From IMG/VR virus record IMGVR_UViG_3300010413_000074, positions 1 to 41,793 of that record: 41,793 nt of DNA; one strand, given 5' to 3'. This DNA is from a virus. Positions within the stretch are counted from its first letter, which is position 1. Each line of letters opens with the position of its first letter. Below are positions 2,202 through 37,351 of the stretch, piece after piece. The translations under genes and the position numbers were made by a program. The notes beneath the pieces were generated by a model. That model was not told the origin of the DNA and ran no database searches. It saw nothing but the letters and a program-made list of their open reading frames with translations.

Positions 2202-4241
2202 CTGGGAATAAAGCTTATAGACCGTTTTAAAAATGCTGCTCGTGCTTTCTCATTAACTGATTTAGATACTTTACTTGATTATATTAATTTAGGCTATCCC
2301 TCTTCAAGCGGTATAATTGTCAATGAAAAAATTGCCATGAATTTTAGTGCATGGTTCAACGGTGTCCAGCAGATAAGCCAAACGATAGCATCCTTGCCGA
2401 TATATGTTTACAAAAAGATTTCAGAAGAAAAAAAAGAAAAATTCAAATCACTTCCTTTATTCTATGTACTTAGCAAAAAAACAAATATAAGAACTTCTGC
2501 TTATACTTGGAGTGAAACTACAATAAACCATGCTATAAACTGGGGGAATGCTTATAGTTATATTGAGAGGGATCGGTCTTATCGAGTTGTAGGTCTTTGG
2601 TTAATGAATCCTCGCAATATACAGAAAATAAAAGTAAATAATGATGGCACACTTACATATTTATATCGAGATAATAACAGAGTAAAAGAGTTTTTACAGG
2701 ATGAAATATTGCATATACCGGGATTGGGATTTGATGGAATACAAGGTTATTCTGTATTGTCTTTAGCAAAAGAAGCTATTGGGCTTGGTCTTTCTATGGA
2801 AAAATTTAATAATAAATTCTATGAATCGGGTACAAGCATAGGTGGAATACTTACACATCCAGGAAAGTTGAGCGTAGAAGCAAAGCATAAACTTAAAAAG
2901 CAGTTAAAAGGCGAATACGGTGGGGCAGTTAATGCATACAAGACTATGGTATTATCGGAAGGTATGACTTATGAGAAATTGGGTATGCCTTTAGAAGATG
3001 CACAATTTTTGCAATCAAGAGAATTTCAGATTCAAGAAATAGCCCGATGGCTAAATATGCCTCCTCATAAATTAAAAGATTTATCACACGCAACTTATTC
3101 TAACATAGAGCAAGAACAGGCCAGTTATTATCAGGATACAATAAGGCCGTGGCTTGAAAGGATGGAGGCAGTAATGAATATAAAATTGCTGCCAGATCCT
3201 ATCAATACTTTTATTGAATGTGATTTTAAAGCTATATTAAGGGCTGATATGAAAACAAGGTATGAGTCATATAATATAGGCCGCATGGGTGGTTGGTTAA
3301 GTGCTAATGCAATACTTGGAATGGAGAACATGAACCCTATAGATGAAGAATATGCAGATGCACATATGATTCCGCTTAATATGGTAAATGCTAAAAGCTT
3401 AACAGAAGAACCAGAGCCCATGGAAGAGCCAAAACAAATAGAAGAAGATAAGTCAGAAAATAAAGAAGAAGACAAAGAAGAAAAAAGCCTTATTATACCG
3501 ATTGAACAAAGACTTATAGTTAATAATTTGGAAACAAGGGCAGCAAAAAGCATTGTTATACGAAGAAATATAACCGATTCATACAGAGATTTATTTAAAA
3601 AAACTTTACAGCGAATTGTCAATAAAGAAATAAAAGATATAAGAAGTATGACAAATAACTATGATTTTAAGGACGAATTACTTACTTTGATGAATGACTA
3701 TTATAGAAAGTTCCCTGATTATTTTGTAAAAAATTATAAACCTGCTATATATAGTTTTGCTGATGAAATTGTAAGAGCTGCCAAAGAAGAAGTAAAAGCA
3801 AGTGATATTGATACCTCAAAACTTATAGATAATTACATGGACACAACTACAGTAAGATATGTTTCAAGCAGCCAAAGCCAACTGGCAAAAATAATAAGAA
3901 ATTCACAGCTTGATGAAATAAATAACAATATAGATCAGCGATTGTCGGAGTGGGAAGAAAAAAGAGCTGATAAAGTAACTAATCACGAATTGATAGATGG
4001 CGAAAACGGCTTTGCACAGTTTATATTTTTTGCATCTGGTTTCAATAGCATGTGGGTTTCTGTTGGAAAGTCATGCCCTTATTGCAATACACTTGATGGA
4101 CGTATTATTTCAGAGGGTGGATATTATATAACAAAAGGAGAGAGCATTCAGCCTGAAGATAAAGAACCGATGAATTTTAACAGTAATATCAGTCATCCTT
4201 CAGCTCATCAGGGTTGTGATTGTTCTATAATACCAGTATAA
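2202..4241 (+). CDS. Portal protein fused to a MuF-like head morphogenesis domain, CTG start
   Basis: Forms the dodecameric DNA channel at one capsid vertex. The first in-frame ATG (2337) would cut off conserved sequence. The frame is open upstream and encodes a normal portal N-terminus, including a VNEKIAMNFSAW-type stretch. A CTG at 2202 with AGGAG 9 nt upstream is the best start, giving about 679 residues. The first ~380 residues are HK97-type portal; an acidic Glu/Lys linker follows. The C-terminal part ends with CPYC, DGR and a His/Cys tail (AHQGCDC), as in Mu gpF-like minor head proteins. Fusion of portal and MuF domains is known in other phages. The start codon is inference; the upstream open frame is seen directly. 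Confidence 0.92.
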   Translation: MGIKLIDRFKNAARAFSLTDLDTLLDYINLGYPSSSGIIVNEKIAMNFSAWFNGVQQISQTIASLPIYVYKKISEEKKEKFKSLPLFYVLSKKTNIRTSAYTWSETTINHAINWGNAYSYIERDRSYRVVGLWLMNPRNIQKIKVNNDGTLTYLYRDNNRVKEFLQDEILHIPGLGFDGIQGYSVLSLAKEAIGLGLSMEKFNNKFYESGTSIGGILTHPGKLSVEAKHKLKKQLKGEYGGAVNAYKTMVLSEGMTYEKLGMPLEDAQFLQSREFQIQEIARWLNMPPHKLKDLSHATYSNIEQEQASYYQDTIRPWLERMEAVMNIKLLPDPINTFIECDFKAILRADMKTRYESYNIGRMGGWLSANAILGMENMNPIDEEYADAHMIPLNMVNAKSLTEEPEPMEEPKQIEEDKSENKEEDKEEKSLIIPIEQRLIVNNLETRAAKSIVIRRNITDSYRDLFKKTLQRIVNKEIKDIRSMTNNYDFKDELLTLMNDYYRKFPDYFVKNYKPAIYSFADEIVRAAKEEVKASDIDTSKLIDNYMDTTTVRYVSSSQSQLAKIIRNSQLDEINNNIDQRLSEWEEKRADKVTNHELIDGENGFAQFIFFASGFNSMWVSVGKSCPYCNTLDGRIISEGGYYITKGESIQPEDKEPMNFNSNISHPSAHQGCDCSIIPV

Positions 4242-4402
4242 TGGAAAAAGCTATTTTAAAAAAACAAGATAGAAGTATAGATACTTTGAAGAGTATTGCA
4301 AAAGATATTCAAAAGAAGTATAATAATACTATAAAGATTGAGCTTAATGTACATAAGGATAAACCGGATGTACATTGTAATATAACTGAATATATAGATT
4401 AA
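4241..4402 (+). CDS. Small hypothetical protein between portal and protease
   Basis: A 53-residue, lysine-rich protein whose ATG overlaps the portal stop codon (TAATG), a common arrangement for coupled translation. It is mostly helical in appearance, then ends in an amphipathic stretch with His and Asp. I do not recognise a family. A longer start at 4220 is open but lies inside portal and has no advantage. Position between portal and prohead protease suggests a head-assembly accessory role, but nothing in the sequence proves it. Confidence 0.6.
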   Translation: MEKAILKKQDRSIDTLKSIAKDIQKKYNNTIKIELNVHKDKPDVHCNITEYID

Positions 4403-4454
4403 ATAAAACAGACCGCCGGAATACACCGACCTGCTACCATAGGGGAGGTGTATA

Positions 4455-5333
4455 TTGCCAATACCAAAACCAAAAACCAACGAATCAAAAGATGATTTTA
4501 TTTCACGATGTATGTCTAATGATACCATGATAGAAGAATATCCAGATGATGATAAAAGATATGCAATATGCGAATCGAGTTGGAAAGAAAAAAAAGCAGC
4601 TTCTAATTTTATTGAAAGAAGGTATATTTATCAAGATGTTGATATGGAATTTAGATATGATTCAGATAATAACACTCTTGAAGGTTATGCCGCAAGGTTT
4701 AATGTATATTCTGAAGATTTAGGGGGCTTTAAAGAACGCATAAAGCCGGGTGCTTTTAAAAAAACAATAAAAGAAAACGATATAAGAGCTTTGTTTAATC
4801 ATGATCCTAATTATGTATTAGGCCGTACAAAAAATGACACTTTAGATCTTATTGAAAATAACAAAGGTTTAAAATTCAGAGTAGTGTTGCCAGACACATC
4901 TATTGCAAAAGATTTGAAAATATCCATTGACAGGGGTGATATAAGTCAATGTTCTTTTGGCTTTCAGACCATAAAAGATTCATGGTCTGAAGATTACAAG
5001 AAGCGAGATTTAATTGAAGCAAAATTATTTGATATTTCACCAGTAACATTTCCAGCATACACACAAACAGAAGTAAAAGTCAGAAATGCACTTATAGAAA
5101 TGGGTATTGATTATAATTCTATAAATTTAATAATAACAAAAGCGAATAGAAATATTGAATTGTCAGATAGTGATAATCAAATTCTTAAAAATACAATTGA
5201 TATACTTGGTAGTTTTTTAAATATTGATGAACCGCCTGCAGAAGGGCATTCAGAATTGTCAGAACCGGATTACTCTATTCAGGCAAGAATATTGTTAAAA
5301 AAATATCGGGTGTCAAAACTCACAGGAGGTTAA
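4455..5333 (+). CDS. HK97-type prohead maturation protease, TTG start
   Basis: A 292-residue serine protease that cleaves the capsid N-terminal scaffold region during head maturation. It starts at TTG 4455 behind a very strong GGGGAGGTG site. The first ~50 residues form a small helical domain (SRCMSNDTMIEEYPDD and an Ala-Ile-Cys stretch) seen in front of many phage prohead proteases. The protease core follows: a His in FNHDPNYVLGRT, a Ser in SQCSFGFQ, and the conserved DISPVTFPAY segment. The C-terminal ~80 residues may act as scaffold. The capsid gene begins one base after its stop, with the ribosome site inside the end of this gene. Confidence 0.92.
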   Translation: MPIPKPKTNESKDDFISRCMSNDTMIEEYPDDDKRYAICESSWKEKKAASNFIERRYIYQDVDMEFRYDSDNNTLEGYAARFNVYSEDLGGFKERIKPGAFKKTIKENDIRALFNHDPNYVLGRTKNDTLDLIENNKGLKFRVVLPDTSIAKDLKISIDRGDISQCSFGFQTIKDSWSEDYKKRDLIEAKLFDISPVTFPAYTQTEVKVRNALIEMGIDYNSINLIITKANRNIELSDSDNQILKNTIDILGSFLNIDEPPAEGHSELSEPDYSIQARILLKKYRVSKLTGG

Positions 5334-5334
5334 G

Positions 5335-6654
5335 ATGGATAAACTTAAAAACGAGCTTGCAAAACTTCAGACAGAAATAGATGAACTTGAATCAAGTGTC
5401 AATGATGAATCAAGAAGTTTTACAAAGGATGAGCTTGAAAAGGTTACAGAAAAACTTGACAGAATAGAAACTATAGAAGCAGAAATAAAAACAAGGTCAA
5501 GGATTTCAGAAAGAAAACCTGAAGAAAAGCCAATTGCAAGGGCTATTTTAGATAATGTTGAGCCTGCTGCTGAAAAAGAAGAATATAGATTCGGTCAGTA
5601 TGTTCAGGATTGTATAAAAGCGTCACGACCTGATGGTGGAGATTTTACTCCAAGATTAAGAAACCATCAGAAAAGAGCTTTATCTGAAATAAACGAACAG
5701 CGTGCTATTTCTGGTTTAAGTGAACTGATTCCGTCAGACGGCGGGTTCCTTTTGACTACAGATTATAGTTCAGAGCTATTACAGAACGCATATGCTACAG
5801 GATTACTTGCAAGTAGATGCCGCAGAATACCGATTAGCACAAGTGCAGGAAAAATAGTAATTCCTGGTGTAGATGAAACATCAAGAGCAGACGGATACAG
5901 GAATGGTGGAGTAAGAATGTACTGGGCAGGTGAAGGTGATGAGAAAACATCAAGTAAACCTAAATTTAGAAGGGTAGAACTCGAACCACATAAACTTGTT
6001 GGTCTTGTATATATGACCGATGAACTTATGATGGATGTTGCAGCCTTAGAGGGTTATGTCAGGGATATGTTTGCACAGGAAATGGGTTTCAAACTTGATG
6101 ATGCAATAATTGAGGGAACAGGTGCAGGCCAGCCTTTAGGAATTAAGAATTCAGGTGCGCTTGTAAGTGTGGCGAAAGAAGTTGGACAAGCAGCAGATTC
6201 TATTGTGGCTGAAAATATTGAGAAGATGTATAGTAGAATATTTCCATCATCATTATCAAATTCAGTGTGGCTTATAAATCAGAATTGTTGGCCTCAGATT
6301 TTTCAGCTTCATCATGCAGTCGGAACAGGTGGTGCGCCTATGTTTATGCTGCCAGGCAGTATGCCGAATGCGCCAGCAGGAACTTTACTTGGTAGGCCCA
6401 TTATACCGATTGAACAGTGCGAAACTCTGGGAGATGCAGGAGATATTTATTTTGTTGATTTTAAACATTATATGTTAACAGATAAAGGTGGAATGCAGTC
6501 AGCACTCAGTATGCATGTCAGATTTATTTATGATGAAACTGTTCTCAGGTTTGTATATAGAGTAGACGGTCAGCCTGATATCAATAGTGCTGTTACACCT
6601 TTTAAAACAACTGATACTCAGTCACCTTTTATTACTTTAGCAGAAAGAGCATAA
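5335..6654 (+). CDS. Major capsid protein (HK97 fold)
   Basis: A 439-residue protein that builds the icosahedral head. Residues 1-60 or so form a charged coiled coil, the delta/scaffold region expected to be removed by the upstream protease. The mature domain follows after about residue 100, with typical HK97 segments: RAISGLSELIPSDGGFLL, a GEGDE loop, LVGLVYMTDELMMD and the long ALEGYVRDMFAQEM helix. The C-terminus carries the DETVLRFVYRVDGQP strand pattern. An AGGAGG site precedes the ATG. Length and pattern are normal for the family. Confidence 0.95.
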   Translation: MDKLKNELAKLQTEIDELESSVNDESRSFTKDELEKVTEKLDRIETIEAEIKTRSRISERKPEEKPIARAILDNVEPAAEKEEYRFGQYVQDCIKASRPDGGDFTPRLRNHQKRALSEINEQRAISGLSELIPSDGGFLLTTDYSSELLQNAYATGLLASRCRRIPISTSAGKIVIPGVDETSRADGYRNGGVRMYWAGEGDEKTSSKPKFRRVELEPHKLVGLVYMTDELMMDVAALEGYVRDMFAQEMGFKLDDAIIEGTGAGQPLGIKNSGALVSVAKEVGQAADSIVAENIEKMYSRIFPSSLSNSVWLINQNCWPQIFQLHHAVGTGGAPMFMLPGSMPNAPAGTLLGRPIIPIEQCETLGDAGDIYFVDFKHYMLTDKGGMQSALSMHVRFIYDETVLRFVYRVDGQPDINSAVTPFKTTDTQSPFITLAERA

Positions 6655-6664
6655 GGAGGAAATA

Positions 6665-7150
6665 ATGGTAAATTTTGCAGAAGAACATAAAATTGTAAAC
6701 TGTTTCAACTCAAGCTTTATAGCTGCTAATGAAGATATTTACAACGGTAATCCGGCAAGTGATGTAATCAATATGCAGGATTGGCGGGATGTTATTTTTA
6801 TTATCCAGCGAGGAGCAGGAGCAACAGGAACGGCTACTGTAACAGTAGAAAGTTGTGACGATACTACTCCGACAACTACTACAGCAGTGGCATTCAGGTC
6901 AAGAACCATGACAACCGCAACAGACACTTGGGCAGCATGGACTGCAAGGGCGGCAGCAGGCTATACAACAACAGCAGGAGCAGATACAGCAGAGGAAATA
7001 TGGGTATCTTCAGACGGTTTAAGTGGTTCTGATAAATATGTACGGTTACAGTTAACAGAAGTAGTGAATAATGCTTGTGATGGCGGAGTTGTAGCAATTC
7101 TGTTTAATCCTAGATACGCAGAAGATGTTAACAGAACTGTATTAACATAA
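6665..7150 (+). CDS. Putative capsid-associated (decoration) protein
   Basis: A 161-residue beta-rich, Thr/Ala-rich protein encoded 10 nt after the capsid gene with its own AGGAGG site. The position is that of head decoration or stabilising proteins, and the sequence pattern (a QRGAGATGTATVTVES strand pair, then KYVRLQLTEV) looks like a small beta-sandwich. A similar strand pattern occurs inside the connector protein encoded at 9722-10642, suggesting a shared fold. Assignment as a decoration protein is inference from position and composition; no catalytic motif is visible. Confidence 0.65.
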   Translation: MVNFAEEHKIVNCFNSSFIAANEDIYNGNPASDVINMQDWRDVIFIIQRGAGATGTATVTVESCDDTTPTTTTAVAFRSRTMTTATDTWAAWTARAAAGYTTTAGADTAEEIWVSSDGLSGSDKYVRLQLTEVVNNACDGGVVAILFNPRYAEDVNRTVLT

Positions 7151-7160
7151 GGAGGATAAA

Positions 7161-8090
7161 ATGAGTGTAAACGCTTTTAATCCTCCAAGAGGATCGGTTG
7201 CTTCAAGATGGTTGCAAGGTCATTTGTTTTTCTATCCGGGTGATGTTCCAGGAACATGCTTTTATGTAGATAGCAATTCTGGTGCAGCTGCCAATGATGG
7301 GTTAACATGGGATACTGCACTTAATACTATTGATGCAGCTGTAAACAAGTGTACAGCGTCAGCAGGCGACGCAATATATGTGCATCCGTCACATACAGAA
7401 ACGCTTGCTGCAGATAGCGCAATTGATATTGATGTAGCAGGTGTTACAGTATACGGAATCAGGATTGGCAATTTGATGCCTACTTTAAGCGTAACAGCAG
7501 TCGCAGGAGACTGTAAACTCGCTGCAGCAGGAGTTTCAATACACAATCTTAGTTTTACTGGTGATATTGATGCAACAACAGGATGTATAGAAGTTTCCGG
7601 AGCTGATTGTGCTGTAGTAAATTGTCAGTATAGAGATGTAACAGGACAGGCTACTGATGTATTAATTACTGTTGACGGAGCAGACAGACTACTTATAGAC
7701 GGGTTTAAAAGTATCGGTGCAGCCGCAGCAGGTGCGAATAGTGCTATTGCAGTTGATGGTTCGGATGACATAGTTATCAGAAACTTTAACCTATATGGCA
7801 ATTTTGCAGTTGGCGGAATTGATTTTAGAACAACTGCATCTAATAGAGTACATGTACATTCTGGTCTTATCTGGACAGAGAACGCAGCTGATATTGCAAT
7901 AGTCGATACTATTACAGGTTCAAGCGGTACTATAGGCCCGGATATAGAAATCATGTTGCAGGACAACGCAGCCAATATTACAACAGCAGTAACAGGAGCG
8001 ACTTTTCAATTGTTTGATCCAGTATATGTATGTAACCTTGTTAATGAAAAAGGGATGTTAATAAACTGGACAGCAAGTACACATGCTTAA
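7161..8090 (+). CDS. Parallel beta-helix virion protein (putative head surface protein)
   Basis: A 309-residue protein with a right-handed beta-helix look. After about 40 residues comes FYVDSNSGAAANDGLTWDTA, the entry strand seen in many pectate-lyase-like phage proteins, then regular short strands with repeated Val/Ile and Asn/Asp turns up to about residue 240. The gene lies within the head module and has its own AGGAGG site. Such folds usually bind or cut polysaccharides, or simply form fibres. No clear catalytic Asp/Glu set is visible, so I propose a surface adhesin or head fibre rather than an enzyme. Function is inferred. Confidence 0.65.
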   Translation: MSVNAFNPPRGSVASRWLQGHLFFYPGDVPGTCFYVDSNSGAAANDGLTWDTALNTIDAAVNKCTASAGDAIYVHPSHTETLAADSAIDIDVAGVTVYGIRIGNLMPTLSVTAVAGDCKLAAAGVSIHNLSFTGDIDATTGCIEVSGADCAVVNCQYRDVTGQATDVLITVDGADRLLIDGFKSIGAAAAGANSAIAVDGSDDIVIRNFNLYGNFAVGGIDFRTTASNRVHVHSGLIWTENAADIAIVDTITGSSGTIGPDIEIMLQDNAANITTAVTGATFQLFDPVYVCNLVNEKGMLINWTASTHA

Positions 8091-8095
8091 ATTAA

Positions 8096-8114
8096 GGGGC
8101 GGTTTACCCGCCCT
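8096..8114 (+). terminator. GC-rich hairpin in the head-gene intergenic gap
   Basis: GGGCGG (8097-8102) pairs with CCGCCC (8108-8113) around a 5-nt loop, just after the beta-helix stop codon. It is followed by only TATTTTA rather than a long T-run, so termination would be weak. It may instead set relative transcript levels between head genes or stabilise mRNA ends. Confidence 0.5.
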
Positions 8115-8131
8115 ATTTTAAAGGAGCTTAT

Positions 8132-8854
8132 ATGGCAAGACAAACAAAAACAGTAAACACATATGCAACTGTCACATATGATGATTTATATAATAACAGG
8201 TGGCTTGATGCCGTTGGTGAAAATGTTCGCAAGTTTGAACTTGGTTTAGGAATACCGACAGATGACACAACAGGCGATCCTACTCAGTTTACATGCACGA
8301 TGACGGAAGCGGGCGCAGGAAATACAACAGCAGTCAATAATACAGAAGCAGGACAGGCAGTTTTAATTACTAATGCTGCAAATGAAAATGACGGAATCAA
8401 TATGCAATTAAAAGGCTCGGCTTTTCAGCTAACAGCAGGCAAGCCGTTGTATTTTGGCATTAAGTGTAAGATTTCAGATGCAACACAGAGCGATCTATTA
8501 GTTGGTCTTTGTGAAGTTGACACTACATTAATAAATGCACATGCTCACGCAGTAACGGATGATGGAATATATTTTTCATGTCTCGATGGGTCAACAACAA
8601 TTAATTTTACAAATGAATTGAATGGGACAGAAGGTACAACAGCATCAAGTGTAGCGATGGACACAAACGAACATATCTATGAAATATATTATGATGGTCA
8701 GACGGTATATGCGTATGTTGACAATAACCTTGTTACATCAGTATCCGCAGGACTTGCAGCAGTTGCGTTAACTCCATCAGTTGCATTTTACAACGGTGAA
8801 GCAGTAGCGAAAAATATGGACATAGCATGGATGCGATGTATCCAAGTGAGGTAA
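8132..8854 (+). CDS. Jelly-roll/lectin-like virion protein
   Basis: A 240-residue beta-rich protein with the general pattern of a concanavalin A-like (LamG-type) sandwich. Alternating strands include LYFGIKCKISD, DGIYFSCLDGS and a strand with HIYEIYYDGQTVYAYVDNN, followed by LTPSVAFYNGEA. This order (binding-face strands, then 'displayed length versus small object' wording typical of LamG/lectin domains) suggests carbohydrate or surface binding. It is encoded in the head-decoration block and has its own AGGAG site. The fold is inferred from the strand pattern alone. Confidence 0.6.
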   Translation: MARQTKTVNTYATVTYDDLYNNRWLDAVGENVRKFELGLGIPTDDTTGDPTQFTCTMTEAGAGNTTAVNNTEAGQAVLITNAANENDGINMQLKGSAFQLTAGKPLYFGIKCKISDATQSDLLVGLCEVDTTLINAHAHAVTDDGIYFSCLDGSTTINFTNELNGTEGTTASSVAMDTNEHIYEIYYDGQTVYAYVDNNLVTSVSAGLAAVALTPSVAFYNGEAVAKNMDIAWMRCIQVR

Positions 8855-8857
8855 ACC

Positions 8858-9184
8858 ATGATTAACAAAGTTTATCAAACAGGTGCAGGGGCAATAGCAT
8901 ATGTATTTGAACCTAACACAGGGTTTCAGCTTGAGGAAATAGTATTAAAACTAAGTGCTGCAGGTGGTGCTGCTGAAAATTTCAGCGTAGATGAAATAGA
9001 TAATAATGGGGCAGAATATGGGGCTAATATTGTAAGTCAGGATATGAATACTGTTACTACTTTGAAATTTCAACCGGACAGGCCGTTTGAGTATCAGACA
9101 GGTGATAAGTTAGATTTCACTTATACTAACACAAACAGCAGAACATGGGGCTTGACTATTAAGTTTAAGCCAATAAATGGGTGA
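8858..9184 (+). CDS. Small beta-sandwich virion protein (putative)
   Basis: A 108-residue protein dominated by beta strands (FQLEEIVLKLSAAGG, TTLKFQPDRPF, WGLTIKFKP), separated by Asn/Gly turns. It begins 3 nt after the preceding stop and runs to within a few bases of the next gene. Size and strand pattern fit a decoration or fibre-attachment protein. I do not recognise a named family. Confidence 0.6.
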   Translation: MINKVYQTGAGAIAYVFEPNTGFQLEEIVLKLSAAGGAAENFSVDEIDNNGAEYGANIVSQDMNTVTTLKFQPDRPFEYQTGDKLDFTYTNTNSRTWGLTIKFKPING

Positions 9185-9188
9185 TATT

Positions 9189-9725
9189 ATGTTAATAGTA
9201 AACGGAAAAGATCAAGCAGATGTATATACAGATGTAAAACACATTGAAGGGCATATACACAGACAGAGTAGGACATATGGTAAAAGCGCCGATCAGTCCG
9301 GGACAAACTGGGCAACAGAGGACAGACTAACAACTTTTCAGGCTATAAGTGGGAATGGTGTTTATGGAGCGGATGCAAATGACGAAGCTAAAATATTCGG
9401 AACAACTGATACACCTGTAATAACAGGCCAAGTAAAGTTCGATCTAGCCGAGGCAATGATAGTTAGCGTCTCGGAAAGTACAACATATATATTAAGGTTT
9501 GTATGGGGTACAGGAACTATGGCGGCAGCTATTACAGCAGGCCAGTACAGTACTGTAACTGTTTTATTTGACTCGGCAAATCCTCAATTGTCTGCAGGCA
9601 TTCCTATTGCGATAGGTGTTAAGGATTTAGATGTTGGCACAAAGGTATGGTGTCAGGCTAAAAATGCAACAGATAATGCAACAATAGATTTTTATATTAC
9701 CGGTGTGCATGGTTATGATGTATGA
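9189..9725 (+). CDS. Beta-rich virion protein of unknown function
   Basis: A 178-residue protein encoded in the same block of putative head-surface genes. The ATG at 9189 is chosen over one at 9177 because GGGTGA lies just before it, while the earlier ATG has no ribosome site and overlaps the upstream gene. The C-terminal half has a regular strand pattern (STTYILRFVWGTG, QYSTVTVLFDS, IPIAIGVKDLDVGTKVW). Its stop overlaps the connector start (ATGA). No recognised motif; a structural role is inferred from position. Confidence 0.6.
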   Translation: MLIVNGKDQADVYTDVKHIEGHIHRQSRTYGKSADQSGTNWATEDRLTTFQAISGNGVYGADANDEAKIFGTTDTPVITGQVKFDLAEAMIVSVSESTTYILRFVWGTGTMAAAITAGQYSTVTVLFDSANPQLSAGIPIAIGVKDLDVGTKVWCQAKNATDNATIDFYITGVHGYDV

Positions 9726-10642
9726 AGATAATTACTGAACCTACAATAGAACCTGTAAGCCTTAATGAAGTTAAAGAACACTTAAGAATTGATGCATCAA
9801 GTGATTTTGCAGACTCAATTACCAGTGAACAGACTATAGTACCGGACGAATATGGAGCAGGAACAGATACAGGCACAGGAATTGATGTATTAAATTACAG
9901 GGCTGTAGTCAATTTAAATTGTGGAACATTTGCAGCAACTTCAACGCTTGATGTAACTATTCAGGAGTCTGATAATAATGTAGCATATTCAAACTGGGGT
10001 ACATTTGCACAAGTAACAACGGCAAGCGATGATGCAATATATGAAAAAGAATACACTGGAACAAAACAATATATTAGATGTGTAGGTGTAACTGCTAATG
10101 CTAACAGTACATATGGATGTACTGTAATAAAAGGAACTCCATATAGCGCAGAGGATGATGTATTAACAAGATTTATTTCAGCAGCAAGAGTATATTGTGA
10201 AGAATATCAAGGCAGGGCTTATATTACGCAGACATGGGAAAAGGCACTTGATGATTTCCCGGCAGCGGACACAATACAAATACCTATTGCTCCATTACAA
10301 TCTGTTACAAGTGTAAAGTATTATGATACAGATGAAACAGAAAGCACTCTTTCTGATAGTTATTATTATGTAGACACTTATAAAGACCCTGGAAGAATAG
10401 TATTACAGTATGGTTATTCATGGCCTTCCGATGTATTGAGACCTGCAAACGGTGTAATAATCAGATATGTATGTGGATACGGTGACAATGCTACAGACGT
10501 TCCTGAAAGTATAAGACAAGCAATTTTACTGCTTGTAGGTCATTTTTACGAGAACAGAGAGAATTCAATCAGGCAGAATTTACAAAATATACCATTTGGA
10601 GTTGTGGAATTGCTTATGCTGCAGGATGTAAACCTATTATGA
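9722..10642 (+). CDS. Head-tail connector (gp6-like) with an inserted beta domain
   Basis: The protein forms the ring below the portal. Residues 1-28 (EPVSLNEVKEHLRID) and 143-306 (DDVLTRFISAARVYCEEYQG, then SVKYYDTD and a PESIRQAILLLVGHFYENRE helix) match the usual gp6-like connector. Between them, residues ~29-140 form an extra beta-rich domain (AVVNLNCGTF, TLDVTIQESDNN, KQYIRCVGV) where the family normally has a short loop. That insert resembles the putative decoration protein encoded at 6665-7150. At 306 residues it is well over the usual ~100-200. The ATG overlaps the upstream stop. Confidence 0.85.
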   Translation: MKIITEPTIEPVSLNEVKEHLRIDASSDFADSITSEQTIVPDEYGAGTDTGTGIDVLNYRAVVNLNCGTFAATSTLDVTIQESDNNVAYSNWGTFAQVTTASDDAIYEKEYTGTKQYIRCVGVTANANSTYGCTVIKGTPYSAEDDVLTRFISAARVYCEEYQGRAYITQTWEKALDDFPAADTIQIPIAPLQSVTSVKYYDTDETESTLSDSYYYVDTYKDPGRIVLQYGYSWPSDVLRPANGVIIRYVCGYGDNATDVPESIRQAILLLVGHFYENRENSIRQNLQNIPFGVVELLMLQDVNLL

Positions 10643-10974
10643 GAGCAGGAAGGCGAAATAAAAAAATACAGATAAGGGGATTTGTTCAGGCAAAAGATGA
10701 ATTTGGACAGCCTGTAAAAACTCCATTTACAGTTGCTACAGTATGGGCTTCTATAAATCCTCTTACCGGGCGTGAAACATGGATCGCAGAAAAGTACAGC
10801 GCAGAACTTGATACTAAAATAGAAATAAGATGGCGTACAGATATCAGGGAAGATTACCATATTAAACATGGTAAATCTTTTTATAAGATTGAATATATTG
10901 TTAATCCTGAAATGGCAAACAGAGATTTAATTATTGCCTGTAAAAAAGTGGGGGATCAAGATATAAATGCTTAA
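10639..10974 (+). CDS. Head closure / head-tail adaptor protein
   Basis: A 111-residue protein with the hallmarks of the phage head-tail joining family (SPP1 gp16-like): a basic N-terminus (RAGRRNKKIQIRG), a DEFGQPVKT turn, a VWASINPLTGRE strand-turn, and IEIRWRTDI...IKHGKSFYKIEYI. It should plug the portal/connector after packaging and give the tail its docking site. The ATG overlaps the connector stop and the gp10-like gene overlaps its own end by 8 nt, so the neck genes form one coupled block. Confidence 0.88.
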   Translation: MRAGRRNKKIQIRGFVQAKDEFGQPVKTPFTVATVWASINPLTGRETWIAEKYSAELDTKIEIRWRTDIREDYHIKHGKSFYKIEYIVNPEMANRDLIIACKKVGDQDINA

Positions 10975-11386
10975 AATGGAAGTTATAAAACAAATAGACA
11001 CTAAAAAACTCAATCAAATGATAACTCTCGCATCAGAATCAATTCCAAAGGCCACGTCATTCATGGAAGCACAAATTAGATCAGATGCTCCTCATGAAAA
11101 AATAAAGAATACAATGAAATCAAGAATAGAAAGAGGAATTGATTTTATAGCAGGATATATTACAACTCAAGCATGGTGGTGGAAGTTTTTTGAGTATGGA
11201 ACAAAGGCTCATGAGGTGGTTATAAAAGACAAGCAAATATTAAGCGATGGCTCTATATTTTGGGGAACAGAAGTAACTATCCCAGCCATGCCGGCAAAAT
11301 CATTTGTGCGCAAGAATAGAGAAGAACATAAAAATGTTGTAATAAATATGTTTAAAGAAATTATAAGGAGGGTATGGGGTAATTAA
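10967..11386 (+). CDS. HK97 gp10-like neck/tail-completion protein
   Basis: A 139-residue protein matching the HK97 gp10-like family: an N-terminal helix, then WWWKFFEYGTKAHEV, which corresponds to the conserved 'E-[FY]-G-T-x-H/P' region, and a C-terminal PAMPAKSFVRKNREEH segment (family 'PAxPFLRPA'). It probably joins the neck to the tail. A second in-frame ATG at 10976 is possible. The stop and next start overlap as TAATG. Confidence 0.85.
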   Translation: MLKMEVIKQIDTKKLNQMITLASESIPKATSFMEAQIRSDAPHEKIKNTMKSRIERGIDFIAGYITTQAWWWKFFEYGTKAHEVVIKDKQILSDGSIFWGTEVTIPAMPAKSFVRKNREEHKNVVINMFKEIIRRVWGN

Positions 11387-11775
11387 TGGCTTATATAGAA
11401 TCTGCATTAAGAACATATATTTTAGCTGATGCTACTGTTTCAGGTTATATAGCTGATAGATTAGATCCGGCTGTTGCAAATCAACAAATAGCAAGGCCGT
11501 ATATGGTATATACGGTTATAAGCGATCCTGATGACAGATATTATGTAGGTAAAGACGCAAGTCAACCAACAATACAATTTGATATTGTTGCTAATACATA
11601 TGCAGAATGTAAAGCGATTGATTTAGCATTAAGGACAAGAATATCAGAAATACATGGTACTACTATTGGGACAATATCTATTATAAGAATAAAGCCCACA
11701 GCTTTTAGAGATATTGGGAAAGTAGAAGATTTTTATGAAGTACAAAGAGATTTCATTATAATTTACGAGAGGTGA
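11386..11775 (+). CDS. Tail completion protein (DUF3168-like)
   Basis: A 129-residue protein with the DUF3168/tail-terminator pattern: an initial helix (ESALRTYILAD), IADRLDP, the ARPYMVYTVISDPDD strand region, and PTIQFDIVANTYAECKAIDLALR. Such proteins cap the head-proximal end of the tail tube. AGGAGGGT precedes the ATG. It is the last standard morphogenesis gene before the radical SAM/glycosyltransferase pair. Confidence 0.85.
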   Translation: MAYIESALRTYILADATVSGYIADRLDPAVANQQIARPYMVYTVISDPDDRYYVGKDASQPTIQFDIVANTYAECKAIDLALRTRISEIHGTTIGTISIIRIKPTAFRDIGKVEDFYEVQRDFIIIYER

Positions 11776-11777
11776 TA

Positions 11778-12581
11778 ATGGATGCAGCCATAACAGTTAC
11801 AACAGAATGCGGTGCTAAATGCAAAACCTGCCCATCATGGCAGAGATTTACAAGAGAAATGCAACCTGAAGTATTTAAATATATATATGAAAAATTAAAC
11901 GCTGATAACATAACAAGACGCATACTTATAAATAATACAGGAGATATATATTTTCATTCTAATACTATGGAATTATTTAATATTATAGAAAGCTTAAAAA
12001 AGAAGCCAGTTATAATAACAACAAATGCAGCTTATATGGATTATATTCCTAATGTAGATGAATTTATTATAAGTTTTAATGGTGGAGATAAAAAGTCTTA
12101 TGAATATACAACTGGGCTACCGTTTGAGAAAGTTTTAAAAAATATTTATAAGAATTATGAAATATTCAAAGATATAAAAGCGGAAATACATTGTCTTATA
12201 TGGGAAGGTAATAAGGGATGTGAAGGCGGATTTAAAAAACTGTTTAAAGATTTTCCAGGGAGATTGAGGATCTCATATAAATATGATAATCAATTTCAAA
12301 AAGATTATACACTTGACAAATATAAAAAAGATAAAAGAATAGTTTGTCAATATATACGAGAGCTATCAATAAACATAGATGGTACTATAAACAGTTGTGC
12401 ACATGATTTTGAAGGCGCTACTAATTGGGGAAATATAATGCAACATGAAGTACATGAATTAGTAAGCAATAGTAAAAGAAGAAAAAAATATCAGGAACAT
12501 AAACACGGAGTATTTAAAGGGTTGTGCAGGGATTGTAATTTTAATACTCCCATAGAAGAAAGGGTAATTTATGTTAATTAA
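11778..12581 (+). CDS. Radical SAM enzyme with SPASM/Twitch-type C-terminus
   Basis: A 267-residue enzyme. Near the N-terminus (C11, C15, C18 with ATG 11778) it has the CxxxCxxC motif, CGAKCKTC, that binds the SAM-cleaving [4Fe-4S] cluster. The C-terminal region has SPASM/Twitch features: C190, then NIDGTINSC ending at C207, a NWGNI segment, and LCRDC (C250, C253), so one auxiliary Fe-S cluster is likely. The barrel between is short but complete. The ATG follows GAGAGGTG. It lies between tail-completion and tail-tube genes and overlaps the glycosyltransferase, so the two probably work together. Substrate unknown: a tail protein or a sugar are both possible. SPASM enzymes modify peptides or sugars/cofactors. 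Confidence 0.85.
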   Translation: MDAAITVTTECGAKCKTCPSWQRFTREMQPEVFKYIYEKLNADNITRRILINNTGDIYFHSNTMELFNIIESLKKKPVIITTNAAYMDYIPNVDEFIISFNGGDKKSYEYTTGLPFEKVLKNIYKNYEIFKDIKAEIHCLIWEGNKGCEGGFKKLFKDFPGRLRISYKYDNQFQKDYTLDKYKKDKRIVCQYIRELSINIDGTINSCAHDFEGATNWGNIMQHEVHELVSNSKRRKKYQEHKHGVFKGLCRDCNFNTPIEERVIYVN

Positions 12582-13578
12582 ATGGGTGGACAAATTTGAC
12601 GGAAAAGGCAATTCATTCGGGTATTCATCGCATCAAAAAAACTTGATGTACGCTATGAAAAAAAATGGAATGAATATAGACGACAATGCTAAAATAGCTT
12701 TGCATATTAAACCGTTGTGTCATTATGAAAAAATCCCTGGTAAAATAAATGTAGTATATACTATGTATGAATATACAACTATACCGGACAATTGGATTGA
12801 GAAGTTAAAAGACATTGATGTTTTAGTAGTGCCCTGTAAACATAATGAAGAACTATTCAGGAAGTATACTGATATACCTATTTATGTATGTTTAGAAGGA
12901 TGCGATACTAACAAATATAAATACATAGAAAGAGAATTCCCTAAAAATAAACCGTTTAGATTTTATTGGTTTGGTGTTAATAATCCTCGGAAAGGATATT
13001 TACATGTCTTAAAAGCGTGGAATGATTGGACTATATTATTCCCTCAGTTTAAAAAGACAACTGAATTATATATTAAGGCATGCAATGGCAAAGATGAAGG
13101 AATACAGAAGGGTGATAATGTTATTTTTGATAATAGAACGCTAAGCATAGATGAACTTGTAAAATTAAATCATGATGCACATGCTTTTATATTTCCTTCT
13201 ATGGGCGAGGGATTCGGTTTAACTTTAGTTGAGGCATTAAGCACTGGTCTTCCTGCAGCGTATACAAATTATTCAGGGATGTGTGATTATATGCGGGAAG
13301 ACTGGGGCTATCCTATAGAATATACTTTAAGTAATATAACTACACTTGAAAGGCTGGAAGAATGGACAGAAGCTAAACGGCATGAAACTCAGGCGGCTTA
13401 TCCTATTATTGAAAGTGTATTAGAACAAATGATAAGAATTTATATAAATTATAAATCTGCTCTTGTTAAGGGCAAGATTGCAGCTGAGATAGTTAGAAAA
13501 CATCTAACATGGGATATTTCAGCCAAAAGATTATTAGAAATATTGGAGGGTGTATATGGCGATAAAAACAGGAGTTGA
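12571..13578 (+). CDS. GT4-type (GT-B) glycosyltransferase
   Basis: A 335-residue sugar transferase. The N-terminal Rossmann half begins with a glycan-acceptor-like GNSFGYSSHQKN loop. The C-terminal half starts with FRFYWFGVNNPRKG and carries the donor-binding FIFPSMGEGFGLTLVEALSTG, with the EX7E pair at E213 and E221, typical of family GT4 retaining enzymes. It overlaps the radical SAM gene by 11 nt, and the tail-tube gene starts inside its 3' end. Co-location suggests glycosylation of a virion (tail) protein during assembly, or modification of host surface glycan. No acceptor can be named. No signal peptide or membrane segment is visible, so it should act in the cytoplasm. Confidence 0.88.
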   Translation: MLIKWVDKFDGKGNSFGYSSHQKNLMYAMKKNGMNIDDNAKIALHIKPLCHYEKIPGKINVVYTMYEYTTIPDNWIEKLKDIDVLVVPCKHNEELFRKYTDIPIYVCLEGCDTNKYKYIEREFPKNKPFRFYWFGVNNPRKGYLHVLKAWNDWTILFPQFKKTTELYIKACNGKDEGIQKGDNVIFDNRTLSIDELVKLNHDAHAFIFPSMGEGFGLTLVEALSTGLPAAYTNYSGMCDYMREDWGYPIEYTLSNITTLERLEEWTEAKRHETQAAYPIIESVLEQMIRIYINYKSALVKGKIAAEIVRKHLTWDISAKRLLEILEGVYGDKNRS

Positions 13579-13957
13579 CGGTGCAGCGTTAATTGATACA
13601 ACTGCATTTGATGTTACAAACTGGACATATACAGGAACAATCAACAATCAGGAAACTACGCCTGTAGGTTCAACAGATCAAGAATTCAAACAAACAACAA
13701 GAGGCGGCTCTGGGAGTTTGACAATAGTATTCGACCCGGCAAATGCACAGCAGAAGGTAATAGTTGATCAGCTATTATCAAGCGTAACACTTAAAGAAGT
13801 GTTATTGCAGTTACAACAGGATGATACAGCAGATGATCAGCTTTATTTTTCAGCAATAATTGAGTCTGTTGATATGCCTGTAGGTGCAAATGATGTTGAT
13901 GTTATAACAGTCAACTATAAAAAGACTGGTAACCTTTACCATGTACCAACAACATAA
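13556..13957 (+). CDS. Major tail tube protein
   Basis: A 133-residue protein in the standard tail-tube position before the tail chaperones. The pattern fits tube proteins: GVDGAALIDTTAFDVTNWTYT, a central RGGSGSLTIVFDPANAQ and a final IIESVDMPVGANDVDVITVNYK, where family members keep the strand-turn-strand for tube stacking. GGAGGG sits 6 nt before ATG 13556; an upstream in-frame GTG (13550) is less likely. The start is inside the glycosyltransferase gene. Confidence 0.8.
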   Translation: MAIKTGVDGAALIDTTAFDVTNWTYTGTINNQETTPVGSTDQEFKQTTRGGSGSLTIVFDPANAQQKVIVDQLLSSVTLKEVLLQLQQDDTADDQLYFSAIIESVDMPVGANDVDVITVNYKKTGNLYHVPTT

Positions 13958-14346: not shown

Positions 14347-14604
14347 TTGTTATATAAGAATGGATGGGAAAATAGAGATGTTAGCAAAATGAAAAATATT
14401 ATGCGGTATCCTGGGGTTGGCGGAAAAGGTTATAAAATAAAGACTCATGATATACCTGCTATAATGGCAGATATAATTGTTAAGAAGGCTGTTATTTTTT
14501 TTATACGTTACAAAAAATACGGCAATCCTTATGGAGGTGGGTTTTTAGATTGGCCGTTCTGGGTAACTGATATATTAGAAGCAATAGCGGAGCATGATGG
14601 ATAA
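14347..14604 (+). CDS. Tail assembly chaperone, frameshift extension (gpT-like)
   Basis: This frame is expressed mainly as the C-terminal part of a -1 frameshift product; the TTG at 14347 is probably not a real start because no ribosome site precedes it. The ~85-residue extension contains YPGVGGKGYKIKTHDIPAIM and GGGFLDWPFWVTDILEAI. Its stop overlaps the tape-measure start (TAATG). The GT-type extension normally recruits the tape measure. The coding evidence is the uninterrupted frame from the A9 run to the tape measure. Confidence 0.7.
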   Translation: MLYKNGWENRDVSKMKNIMRYPGVGGKGYKIKTHDIPAIMADIIVKKAVIFFIRYKKYGNPYGGGFLDWPFWVTDILEAIAEHDG

Positions 14605-16856
14605 TGGCAAGAGAAGAACTTCTATTACTTATTAAAGCAGAAACCCAAAAAGCTGTTCAGGAAATGCAAAAAATGAACAATAGTATAAACAAAACTCAAG
14701 CAGGTATTAAAGGTACTATTGAAGGATTCAAGAATTTTGCAATGAAGGCTCTTGTAGTTGTAGCAGCGATAAAAGGTTTGATAAATGTATTCAAAGGCAC
14801 AACAGAAGCATATAAAAAGCAACTTGAGGCAGAAGTTAAGCTTGAATCTGCATTAAAGGCTACTGGCTATGCTGTTGGAATAACAGCAGAAGAAATGAAA
14901 GCTATGGCTGCCGGGATGCAACAGACTACAGTATTCGGAAATGAACTTGTAATAAATGCTCAAGCCATCATGACAACATTTACAAAGATAGGTAAAGATG
15001 TATTTCCTGAAGCGATAGCAAGGGCGGCCGATATGTCAACTATGTTCGGTCAGGATTTACAGCAGTCTGTTATACAATTAGGTACAGCATTAAACGATCC
15101 TATTGCAGGTATAGGTAGATTAAAGCGTATAGGAATAAGTTTTTCAGAAGAACAGAAAAAACAAATTAAAAGCTTTATGGATATGAATGATATTGCTTCT
15201 GCACAAAAGGTTATACTCGATGAGCTTGGCGTAGAATTCGGCGGAGTAGCTGAGGAGATGGGTAAAACACCTATAGGAATATTTAAAAGATTTGATAATA
15301 CTATGTCAGATTTAAATGAGACTATAGGGATGTATATAAGTAACGCTGCTGTTCCGTTAGCAGAATCGTTTACTAAAATGGCAGAAGGTGTGAATGCATT
15401 TTTAAAGTCAAGAGAAGGCATGGCTCAGATACAAGCCATATTATCAGCTGTTGCAGGTGTTGGATCTATATTAAGTACAATATTTGGTAAAATATTTAGT
15501 ATGTTTAAAGATTTTACCGAAAACATAGCATCCAAGGTTTCTGAAGAATTTAGCGAAATTGTCGGAGAAGGAAATGAATCAAATGTTATATTTACAATAC
15601 TTGGTGGAATTGTTCAGGTTGTATCTGCTCATTTTGCAATATTTGGAAAGATAATAGAATTTGCAATAAACCATTTAAGCAATTTAATTCAAGCAGCTAT
15701 GAAAACAGGAGATGTATTAGTCAAATTAGTTCAAGCTCTTATAGATCCATTTAATCAGGAAAAATGGGATGCATTAGGAACTGCAGGACAAGAAGCTTTA
15801 GATCAGTGGGTTAAAACAGGTGGCGAATTTGTAACCGGCATAGGTGAAATAATTAGCACTGTAATGGATGAATTCGGGAAATTTGTAGAAGGGACAACAC
15901 AAAATGCAGAAGAATTAAAAAAGAACACTGAAGCATCTATAGATGCTGTAAATAAATTGATGGAAGCATTAAAAAGCAATAATAAGGCTTTGTTAGATGA
16001 TTTAAATAATGTGCCGCCTGCATTACAGGGAACTACAGATGAAATAGAAAATATTCTCGCAGAATGGGAAAATATACATTTAACAGATGTAGAAAAAGAA
16101 ATTAAAAAACTTGATGAAATGAAAGCGAATTTTGAAAAAGCAGGAATTGATAGAATAGAAATAGAAGAATGGTATCAAGGTGAAATTGACGCAATAAGAC
16201 AAGAACAGCATGATAAAGAAAAAGAAAGGATGATGGATTTGGTTCAGACATCATTAGATTTTACAAATCAAATGGTTACAGGCATGGCTGATATATTCAG
16301 CATGTATTTTAATAATAAAAATATTGAACTTGATAATAATTATAAAAAGGAAAAAGAAGCTATTGAAAAAAATGTAAAAGATGAAGATGAAAAAAACAAG
16401 GCTCTTGCAAAATTAGAAGCTGATTATGATAAAAAAAGAGGACAGATAAAAACAAGACAGGCAAGACAGGAGAAGGCATGGGGAATAGTACAGTCAATAA
16501 TTGATACAGGCGCAGCAGTAATGAAGACATTTGCACAATTAGGCTTCCCATGGGGCATACCTGCAGCTGTTGCTGTTGGTGCTTTGGGTGCTGCAAAAAC
16601 AGCAATGATAGCAAGTCAGCCTATTCCTAAATTTGAACAGGGCGGAGCTTTTACAGTACCGCCAGGATTTGAAGATGACTCATTTTTAATGCGTGCTAAA
16701 TCAGGTGAAGAGGTTAATATCAGAAGACCTGATCAGGCAGGGCAACCGATACAGATAAAAATATATTTAGGTGAGGATATAATCTGGGATAAGGCTTATC
16801 AGGCAAGTATTAATGGCAATCTGTTAATTGATACAAGGGCATTGACAGGAGGATAA
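14604..16856 (+). CDS. Tape measure protein
   Basis: A 750-residue, mostly helical protein that sets tail length. It opens with coiled coil and an Ala/Val-rich hydrophobic stretch (about residues 45-62). Further hydrophobic segments occur around residues 275-300 and 335-360, and a long charged coiled coil fills about 510-620 (IEKNVKDEDEKNKALAKLEAD region). The C-terminus has an Ala/Gly-rich hydrophobic stretch, a FEQGGAF segment and a GEEVNI motif typical of tape measures. Using the usual rule of about 0.15 nm per residue gives a tail near 110 nm. No peptidase or lysozyme domain is visible. Confidence 0.93.
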   Translation: MAREELLLLIKAETQKAVQEMQKMNNSINKTQAGIKGTIEGFKNFAMKALVVVAAIKGLINVFKGTTEAYKKQLEAEVKLESALKATGYAVGITAEEMKAMAAGMQQTTVFGNELVINAQAIMTTFTKIGKDVFPEAIARAADMSTMFGQDLQQSVIQLGTALNDPIAGIGRLKRIGISFSEEQKKQIKSFMDMNDIASAQKVILDELGVEFGGVAEEMGKTPIGIFKRFDNTMSDLNETIGMYISNAAVPLAESFTKMAEGVNAFLKSREGMAQIQAILSAVAGVGSILSTIFGKIFSMFKDFTENIASKVSEEFSEIVGEGNESNVIFTILGGIVQVVSAHFAIFGKIIEFAINHLSNLIQAAMKTGDVLVKLVQALIDPFNQEKWDALGTAGQEALDQWVKTGGEFVTGIGEIISTVMDEFGKFVEGTTQNAEELKKNTEASIDAVNKLMEALKSNNKALLDDLNNVPPALQGTTDEIENILAEWENIHLTDVEKEIKKLDEMKANFEKAGIDRIEIEEWYQGEIDAIRQEQHDKEKERMMDLVQTSLDFTNQMVTGMADIFSMYFNNKNIELDNNYKKEKEAIEKNVKDEDEKNKALAKLEADYDKKRGQIKTRQARQEKAWGIVQSIIDTGAAVMKTFAQLGFPWGIPAAVAVGALGAAKTAMIASQPIPKFEQGGAFTVPPGFEDDSFLMRAKSGEEVNIRRPDQAGQPIQIKIYLGEDIIWDKAYQASINGNLLIDTRALTGG

Positions 16857-25502: not shown

Positions 25503-25695
25503 TGAATACACAGAATTAAAGATTGAACTTATAAAAGAATGCATTGGAAAATGTCCTGATGCAAAACCGTGCGGACTGCAGGAATCTTTAATGGATTGTT
25601 TTGTAGTATATGAAATAGAAAATAAAAACTGGCTGGTATTAGAATATAATAATCCTGATAATAGCAGTTATTCAATAGGGAGACAAATATCATGA
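25486..25695 (+). CDS. Small early protein with Cys cluster
   Basis: A 69-residue protein with [13 protein letters not shown] near residue 20 and a later C38, possibly a metal site, then a beta-rich half ([18 protein letters not shown]). The start overlaps the preceding gene by 17 nt behind GGAGGTG, and its stop overlaps the next start (ATGA), so translation is coupled across three genes. Unrecognised. Confidence 0.6.
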
Positions 25696-26285
25696 AGAAG
25701 AAATTAATTGAAATAAAAAATAGATACTCTAATGAAATAATTATAAGTGGTAAATATGAGAGTATAAAGGATTGTCTTGAAAAAAATACAGACGCAGACC
25801 TGAGAGGCGCAGACCTGAGAGGCGCAGACCTGACAGACGCAGACCTGAGAGGCGCAGACCTGACAGACGCAGACCTGAGAGGCGCAGACCTGAGAGGCGC
25901 AGACCTGAGAGGCGCAGAAAAATATATGTTTTGGCTTAAACCATATACACTAAATGATTACATAAAAGAATTTAAAATTAAAAAGAAAGGAAATTATATA
26001 TATGTTTTTAAAGGTGTATCTGATGATTTAAAATCACCTATGCATATCACAAATAAGCTTGAATATAAAATAGGTACAATAATTGAAACTGAATATGCCA
26101 ATCCCAATGTATTTGAAGAATGTACTTACGGTATTCATTTGTGTCCTACAAAAGAATTAGCTGGTAAATGGGGAACCAGACTAATTGAAGTTAAAGTACA
26201 CATAGGTGATATTGTGGCTATTCCATACCCTGTTACTAAGGATAAATTCAGGGTTAAAAAATGCGAAGTTGTGAGGATAGTATGA
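25692..26285 (+). CDS. Pentapeptide-repeat protein with a C-terminal phage domain
   Basis: A 197-residue protein. Residues 1-33 form a lead-in, residues 35-74 are eight pentapeptides (ADLRG or ADLTD), and residues ~80-197 are a separate domain. Pentapeptide repeats fold as a square right-handed helix; in some proteins they imitate DNA. The C-terminal domain ([47 protein letters not shown]) resembles the end of the hexapeptide-repeat protein encoded at 37352-38425. Such repeat + domain proteins are common in phages but their role is unknown. The ATG overlaps the upstream stop. Confidence 0.75.
25794..25913 (+). repeat. 15-bp tandem array (pentapeptide units)
   Basis: Eight in-frame 15-bp units encode ADLRG (six) or ADLTD (two). 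Units of the same type are identical at the DNA level, so the array arose or was homogenised recently and its copy number may vary between relatives. Confidence 0.95.
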
Positions 26286-26443: not shown

Positions 26444-26583
26444 TAACTATAAACGGAAATAAAATCCCTGAACCATTAAAAGAAATATACATCCCTGATG
26501 CAGAAACTAAAAGCATTGAGGAACTACATGAAGAAATAGTTAATATAATAATAGCAAGAAGCAGGAGCAAAGAATATGCGTAA
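26440..26583 (+). CDS. Very small protein (47 aa)
   Basis: A 47-residue acidic-to-basic protein from an ATG overlapping the upstream stop (ATGA) behind GAAAGGAAA. It reads [20 protein letters not shown], then an acidic helix ending in RSRSKEYA. Coupling on both sides supports a real gene. Function unknown. Confidence 0.5.
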   Translation: MITINGNKIPEPLKEIYIPDAETKSIEELHEEIVNIIIARSRSKEYA

Positions 26584-27088
26584 AACAATAACAGTAAAAT
26601 ATCTCGATAAAATTGGTGCATGCACGGAAGCAAAAAAAGAATTCTTAAAACAAAAAGAAAGGGATACTTTTGAGTTATTTGATATAATGATAAAGTCGAA
26701 TAAAAAACTATATTTACAATGGGCTAATTGGTTGATTGTAAGGTTAATGACAAAAAGACAGCGGATTAAATACGCAATATATGCAGCCAAGAAAGTATTG
26801 CATATTTTTGAGGAAAAATATCCTGATGACAAACGGCCAAGGGAAGCAATTAAAGCAGTGGAAAATTATTTGAAGAATCCAACAGCAAAGAATAAAAAGA
26901 CTGCTGCTGCTGCTGCTTATGCTGCTGCTTATGCTTATGCTTATGCTGCTGCTTATGCTGCTGCTGCTTATGCTGATACTGATGCTTATGCTGCTGCTGC
27001 TTATGCTGCTGCTGCTTATGCCACATGTAATAAAATTAAGATTAAAATACTTAAATTTGGCATTAAATTATTAAAGGAAATAAAATGA
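26576..27088 (+). CDS. Imm-5-like phage protein with an Ala/Tyr repeat tail
   Basis: A 170-residue protein. The first ~105 residues hold GACTEAKKEFLKQ, LQWANWLIVRLM, YAIYAAKKVLHIFEEKYP and PREAIKAVENYLKNP, the order seen in a family often labelled 'putative immunity protein' in phages and bacteria. The next ~45 residues are Ala/Tyr repeats (AAAYAAAYAYAY style) and then a basic end. The repeat region is typical of the family's helical continuation but is here unusually low in complexity. Whether it protects against a toxin is not shown. Confidence 0.7.
   Translation: MRKTITVKYLDKIGACTEAKKEFLKQKERDTFELFDIMIKSNKKLYLQWANWLIVRLMTKRQRIKYAIYAAKKVLHIFEEKYPDDKRPREAIKAVENYLKNPTAKNKKTAAAAAYAAAYAYAYAAAYAAAAYADTDAYAAAAYAAAAYATCNKIKIKILKFGIKLLKEIK
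26903..27023 (+). repeat. GCT/TAT triplet array coding Ala and Tyr
   Basis: A run of GCT codons broken by TAT, with one Asp/Thr interruption, fills this stretch. Blocks such as GCTGCTGCTTAT recur, so slippage or unequal recombination is likely. All units are multiples of three, keeping the frame open. Confidence 0.9.
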
Positions 27089-37227: not shown

Positions 37228-37228
37228 C

Positions 37229-37294
37229 ATCAGTGAAAACCCCTATAAACCAGTCAGTGATTTCACCCTAATGATTTTCAGACATTTCACTGAT
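37229..37294. repeat. Inverted ATCAGTGAAA motifs after the helicase gene
   Basis: ATCAGTGAAA (37229-37238) faces TTTCACTGAT (37285-37294), a perfect 10-bp inverted pair 46 bp apart; between them is another CAGTGA with GTGATTTCAC. The cluster lies between the helicase gene and the next leader. It may be an operator, a terminator-like long stem, or part of an origin. Confidence 0.45.
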
Positions 37295-37327
37295 ACTAAA
37301 ACTTATTTAAAAAGTGTATATTTATAT

Positions 37328-37348
37328 TATAAAGACTTGAGGAGGTCA
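37328..37348 (+). repeat. Shared leader element, copy 3
   Basis: Third perfect 21-nt copy, identical to 30667-30687 and 31051-31071, 3 nt before ATG 37352. It is 6 kb from the others. Confidence 0.9.
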
Positions 37349-37351
37349 ATT

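Follow-up and report, generated by a model that had tools for sequence, protein, structure and literature searches.

Virion sugars and phage radical SAM genes

Sugars on the phage particle itself are known from mycobacteriophages, for which glycans on both the capsid and the tail tube have been reported (PMC12619734, citing Freeman 2023). The passages of that paper and of PMC11256854 dealing with virion glycosylation, as in phage Che8, mention no radical SAM (rSAM) enzyme; in the cluster F1 phage Maravista the glycosyltransferase (GT) genes lie close to the 3' genome end, whereas the GT described here belongs to the tail operon. Phage rSAM genes have been reported in the Campylobacter phages CP220, CPt10 and WX1, which, like our locus, encode Twitch/BtrN-like enzymes (PMC2853527). 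These phages differ in being myoviruses with arrays of 11-12 rSAM genes, and WX1 has neither an annotated GT beside its rSAM genes nor a tail-terminator/tube slot. The WX1 array (3231-9447), which also includes an amidinotransferase and a BtrN-like protein, resembles a small biosynthetic pathway in its own right.

Phage GTs are often seen as modifiers of the host surface that block superinfection (PMC7824862, PMC8008677). The GT islands of the pelagimyophages and jumbo cyanophages, with an occasional rSAM gene near the tail-fibre regions of the former, share GTs with the locus analysed here (PMC7029224, PMC7824862); they are, however, large variable regions read as modifying lipopolysaccharide or capsule, in contrast to a compact cassette in a fixed tail slot. 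Phage rSAM genes and virion glycosylation are thus each on record separately. What we have not found described is a compact, recurring rSAM-GT cassette placed between the tail terminator and the tail tube: a search of open-access full texts, a body of literature that leaves out most subscription papers, returned no account of one. The first-pass annotation of this DNA had known of no phage system of this form, an opinion that, as far as these texts go, is right for the tail-slot cassette and has to give way for its two ingredients.

The cassette in the window

The window is the whole 41,793-base virus record. Its late operon runs in the order TerS, TerL, portal, protease, MCP, five small genes, head-tail adaptor, head closure, Neck1, tail terminator, rSAM, GT, tail tube, two small genes in the position of the tail chaperones, and tape measure. 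On the plus strand, the adaptor, head closure and Neck1 genes (9722-11386; phrog_442/40, phrog_25 and phrog_5) lead to the tail terminator at 11386-11775 (phrog_347, 2.7e-7), which forms the left border of the slot; the right border is the tail tube, or major tail protein, at 13556-13957 (phrog_10528, 2.5e-6; also judged by its sequence), followed by the tape measure at 14604-16856 (phrog_27166, 2.8e-34). Between the two borders lie a complete rSAM gene for a protein of 267 residues (11778-12581) and a GT4-type gene for one of 335 residues (12571-13578), both also on the plus strand. This bears out the placement between tail-completion and tail-tube genes that was first read from the sequence, and the identities of both enzymes.

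The rSAM frame is open from an in-frame GTG at 11772 and ends with the TAA at 12579-12581, but its likely start, judging from an SD-like gagagg just ahead, is the ATG at 11778, three bases past the terminator stop codon. The GT begins at the ATG at 12571, inside the last rSAM codons, so that the two genes overlap by 11 nt. The tube begins at ATG 13556, supported by a Shine-Dalgarno GGAGG at 13545-13549; counted from this ATG, it overlaps the GT by 23 nt, and the coupling of the pair to the tail tube by overlap stands as originally proposed. The pair is therefore tied to its tail neighbours on either side, through a short gap or an overlap, and has Shine-Dalgarno sites. The GC content of the pair is 0.31, and that of the flanks is similar; from the low GC and the replication genes we would guess at a Bacillota-type host. 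The PADLOC defence family models gave no match at E 0.01.

The GT4 assignment follows from a GT-B donor-binding domain with the EGFGL motif (GEGFGLTLVEA, residues 212-222), from Pfam matches over cut-off to PF00534 (1e-10), PF13692 and PF20706, and from a match to phrog_2170, "glycosyltransferase" (5e-27). Neither the rSAM nor the GT has a membrane segment (maximal 19-residue hydropathy 0.45 and 1.19), and neither matched any Gtr family in Pfam or phrog. On these grounds we rejected host O-antigen conversion of the Gtr type, which works through a flippase and the membrane-bound GtrA and GtrB.

The rSAM core, CGAKCKTC at residues 11-18, has the spacing C11-x3-C15-x2-C18, and this CxxxCxxC motif is invariant across the relatives. 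Further on, four cysteines (C190-x16-C207 and C250-x2-C253) are collinear with those of BtrN and, from the sequence alone, mark the C-terminus as a Twitch domain. A full SPASM domain, with two auxiliary clusters, has the seven-cysteine pattern CX9-15GX4C...CX2CX5CX3C...C. Despite a PF13186 SPASM match of 25.6 bits against a cut-off of 21.5, this class was rejected for the window enzyme, since C190, C207, C250 and C253 are its only C-terminal cysteines; it should be a Twitch enzyme with one auxiliary cluster, so that only the second half of the original "SPASM/Twitch" label survives. PF04055 was undetected by Pfam, the NCBIfam matches (SPASM and maturase) were all below cut-off, and the GGEP-equivalent reads TGDI.

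BtrN was the sole PDB sequence match of the rSAM, collinear in both halves (E 2e-5). Structure prediction had been suggested for both proteins and delivered for one. The single-sequence AlphaFold model of the GT was unusable (pLDDT 40), whereas an AlphaFold model of the rSAM reached modest confidence (pLDDT 56.5, pTM 0.62). Compared with rSAM structures, whose hallmark is a partial TIM barrel, it gave Foldseek E values down to 4e-6 and Z about 12, the best Foldseek match being BtrN. On structural re-ranking with VIA-align, BtrN tied with SuiB, anSME, viperin and others, and the fold therefore cannot separate sugar-acting from peptide-acting SPASM/Twitch enzymes. BtrN oxidises an aminocyclitol, its auxiliary cluster being the likely electron acceptor (PMC9012708). 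The window enzyme resembles it in length class and in its collinear core and auxiliary-cluster domain; BtrN, however, is a 2-deoxy-scyllo-inosamine dehydrogenase of the antibiotic aminocyclitol pathway of butirosin, the identity is about 15-17%, and no aminoglycoside genes were seen in the window.

There are a few other features of the window that deserve mention. After the DnaB helicase, in the replication region, an ORF at 37214-38425 carries dozens of [NDY]xAxIG hexapeptide repeats (Pfam Hexapep, 3e-29) and probably forms a long left-handed beta-helix. A pentapeptide-repeat protein (25692-26285) lies just upstream of an ORF at 26576-27088 with an Ala/Tyr-rich run and an Imm5-like immunity-family match (PF14423, barely over cut-off).

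The terminator/tube slot in related phages

Direct searches were of little help in finding relatives of the two enzymes. Single-sequence scans of viral contigs with the window rSAM and GT, and of genome contigs with the rSAM, yielded no relative; tblastn of the rSAM against phages had no match at E 0.01 and only chance-level ones at E 10, and aligning distant rSAMs left no stretch suitable for searching. A GT-profile scan produced 80 GT loci, with an rSAM by PF13186 in 0 of the 50 records checked, and a scan with the window GT together with that of L005 found nothing closer. The GT matches did, however, lead to one phage (L023) whose MCP is 49% identical to that of the window, and an MCP alignment then led to 80 loci by a route blind to cassette content. 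Among these MCP-selected relatives, rSAM and GT genes were found at the same slot in L141 and L150, and a scan with their two slot rSAMs returned L175, L177, L178, L184-186, L188-191/193 and L192. The gene pair looked for at this position is thus recurrent, which excludes a chance arrangement: several uncultured siphophages carry a small, exchangeable rSAM and GT kit at one fixed tail site.

The make-up of the kit varies. With TT for the tail terminator, the order is TT-GT2-rSAM-GT4-GTA in L141, which has several head genes in common with the window; TT-rSAM-GT4-GT2/GTA-HNH-tube in L150/L176, where L150 has a GT2/GTA fusion and a tape measure after the tube; TT-rSAM-GT4-GT2-tube in L175; TT-rSAM-GT-tube in L184-186; TT-TT-rSAM-GT2-GT/MTase-C-MTase-GTA-tube in L189/L193; TT-rSAM-GT4-GT2 in L177; TT-rSAM-78aa-GT in L192; and TT-nucleotidyltransferase-rSAM in L178. 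In 8/8 non-redundant relatives of the slot-rSAM family whose locus can be seen, the gene lies downstream of the tail terminator, a larger gene intervening only in L141 (the GT2) and L178 (the nucleotidyltransferase). Four of the eight end at a tail-tube gene, as happens wherever the contig extends that far (L175, L176, L184/186, L189/193). The window tube aligns with the tubes of L175 and L114 in an alignment restricted to tube rows, the L141 row being a tail terminator and therefore left aside. Tandem duplicate tail-terminator genes stand just upstream of the cassette in L188, L189, L191 and L193, and also in L178 (2404-3302), before its nucleotidyltransferase-rSAM pair.

It should be stressed that the slot rSAMs, mostly short proteins of 214-219 residues, are 51-71% identical among themselves and about 20% identical to the window enzyme, so a shared chemistry should not be taken for granted. 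A more distant rSAM group (L194-196) lies outside the slot, amid late genes of other kinds.

The slot is also used without an rSAM. Six relatives have GTs and methyltransferases there (L096, L100, L107, L111, L159 and L023, the L100 assignment coming from a motif by eye with no Pfam match), and a GT stands alone in L023 and in two named phages, Arthrobacter phage KellEzio (gp28) and Microbacterium phage Magritte (gp31). The GTs of the latter two, which have about 25% identity with that of the window, occupy the same terminator/major-tail-protein slot, with no annotated rSAM beside them. In nine other relatives the slot is empty, with gaps of 4-219 nt. Enrichment was counted in 35 records picked by MCP similarity only, leaving out L023, which had come from the GT-profile scan. 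A glycan-type Pfam match falls in the slot in 5 of the 8 records having any such match, although the slot accounts for only about 2.4% of the DNA (binomial probability 4e-7, or 9e-5 with the slot fraction tripled); the records are not phylogenetically independent, and the figure is a guide only. Nor is the slot exclusive to glycan genes, as L103 carries a ParB_N/MT-A70 DNA-methylase fusion there (10033-11217).

Probable substrate and acceptor of the cassette

The pair had originally been proposed to modify a tail protein by a radical-derived bond plus a sugar, or else to decorate the host surface late in infection. A two-enzyme modification cassette in the tail operon, with a tail link in many relatives, is the supported part of this proposal; the peptide bond is less supported, since the neighbours are sugar enzymes. 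The rSAM of L189 has a C-methyltransferase (PF08484, 5.5e-35, plus PF08421) in its neighbourhood, and that of L178 a nucleotidyltransferase (MobA-like NTP_transf_3, below the Pfam cut-off). The Methyltransf_13/14 C-methyltransferase family is known for the methylation of NDP-deoxysugars. The phage homologues are not found mainly in host polysaccharide clusters away from tail genes; two bacterial rSAM relatives do adjoin glycan-type genes, one (L182) lying next to a PF01467 cytidylyltransferase and a GT-like gene, and the other (L183) after another rSAM (PF04055), with a DegT-aminotransferase-like gene, recognised by eye, further on. The slot sugar enzymes, these bacterial neighbours and BtrN as the nearest solved enzyme together favour sugar chemistry, and we consider a sugar quite likely to be the substrate of the rSAM, rather than a peptide.

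A RiPP-like change in a tail protein (a thioether, C-C bond or epimer), with the GT glycosylating the same protein, would fit the fold shared with the peptide maturases SuiB and anSME, the weak NCBIfam maturase matches and the overlap of the GT with the tube gene. It is nevertheless improbable, given the sugar-enzyme partners in every relative (GT, C-methyltransferase or nucleotidyltransferase) and BtrN as the only sequence-level PDB match, and the window tube has no cysteine at all, which rules out a thioether there. More improbable still is a catalytically degenerate or passenger rSAM beside a GT that alone matters. Here one could point to TGDI in place of GGEP, the unrecognised PF04055, the shortened barrel of most other slot rSAMs and the broken reading frame of the L177 rSAM; yet every full-length member retains CxxxCxxC together with the auxiliary cysteine pairs, despite an identity of about 20%, and the window gene is intact and well initiated.

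We put at about even chances a late-expressed glycan-modification cassette in a fixed, exchangeable terminator/tube slot, in which a sugar altered by the rSAM is attached by the GT, most likely to a virion protein. The Twitch rSAM would take a hydrogen from a sugar, either nucleotide-activated or already attached, and oxidise or epimerise it in a BtrN-like manner; the soluble GT4 would then pass the sugar to a virion protein produced at the same time, for which the tail tube and the neck and head proteins are the nearest candidates. Such a sugar coat could hide or alter the surface of the particle.

The main rival to this virion reading places the acceptor on the host. The cassette would remodel the cell surface late in infection, for superinfection exclusion or to shield progeny from re-adsorption to debris, and the slot would simply be a safe, late-expressed insertion point. 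This is the usual interpretation of phage GTs (PMC7824862, PMC8008677, PMC7029224); glycan-type genes neighbour the bacterial rSAM relatives, and the ParB/MT-A70 fusion is an example of unrelated cargo using the slot. Against it, the two window proteins come with no membrane or lipid-carrier component, the GT-type matches fall mostly at one structural-operon slot, the cassette overlaps tail genes, and virion glycosylation is a documented alternative. We regard the host-surface explanation as rather unlikely, and lean modestly towards the virion as the final acceptor because of the structural-operon overlap, the varied make-up at a constant address, the lack of membrane parts and the mycobacteriophage glycan precedent.

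That the tail tube itself is the acceptor is a more tentative suggestion. The Ser/Thr fraction of tubes adjoining cassettes (0.203) is no higher than that of other tubes (0.210), and neither the Ser/Thr content nor the sequons of the tubes separate cassette-bearing from cassette-free phages. Equally speculative is the general notion that tailed phages reserve a place in the tail operon for interchangeable glycoengineering genes, where a Twitch rSAM makes a rare sugar for the tail tube or neck. If it were true, phage particles would bear tailor-made sugars from anaerobic radical chemistry, with the enzymes swapped in modular fashion at a single genomic site; the orphan GTs in many phage tail operons would be explained, gene order would become a simple predictor of virion glycosylation, and the slot would be a source of new sugar-modifying rSAM enzymes. 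It would also have a bearing on phage escape from surface traps and from recognition by the immune system.

A second recurring GT address was seen in L006, L010, L057 and L071, where GTs of the same broad family come immediately after the gene for the major capsid protein; those of L006, L010 and L057 apparently have an extra N-terminal domain.
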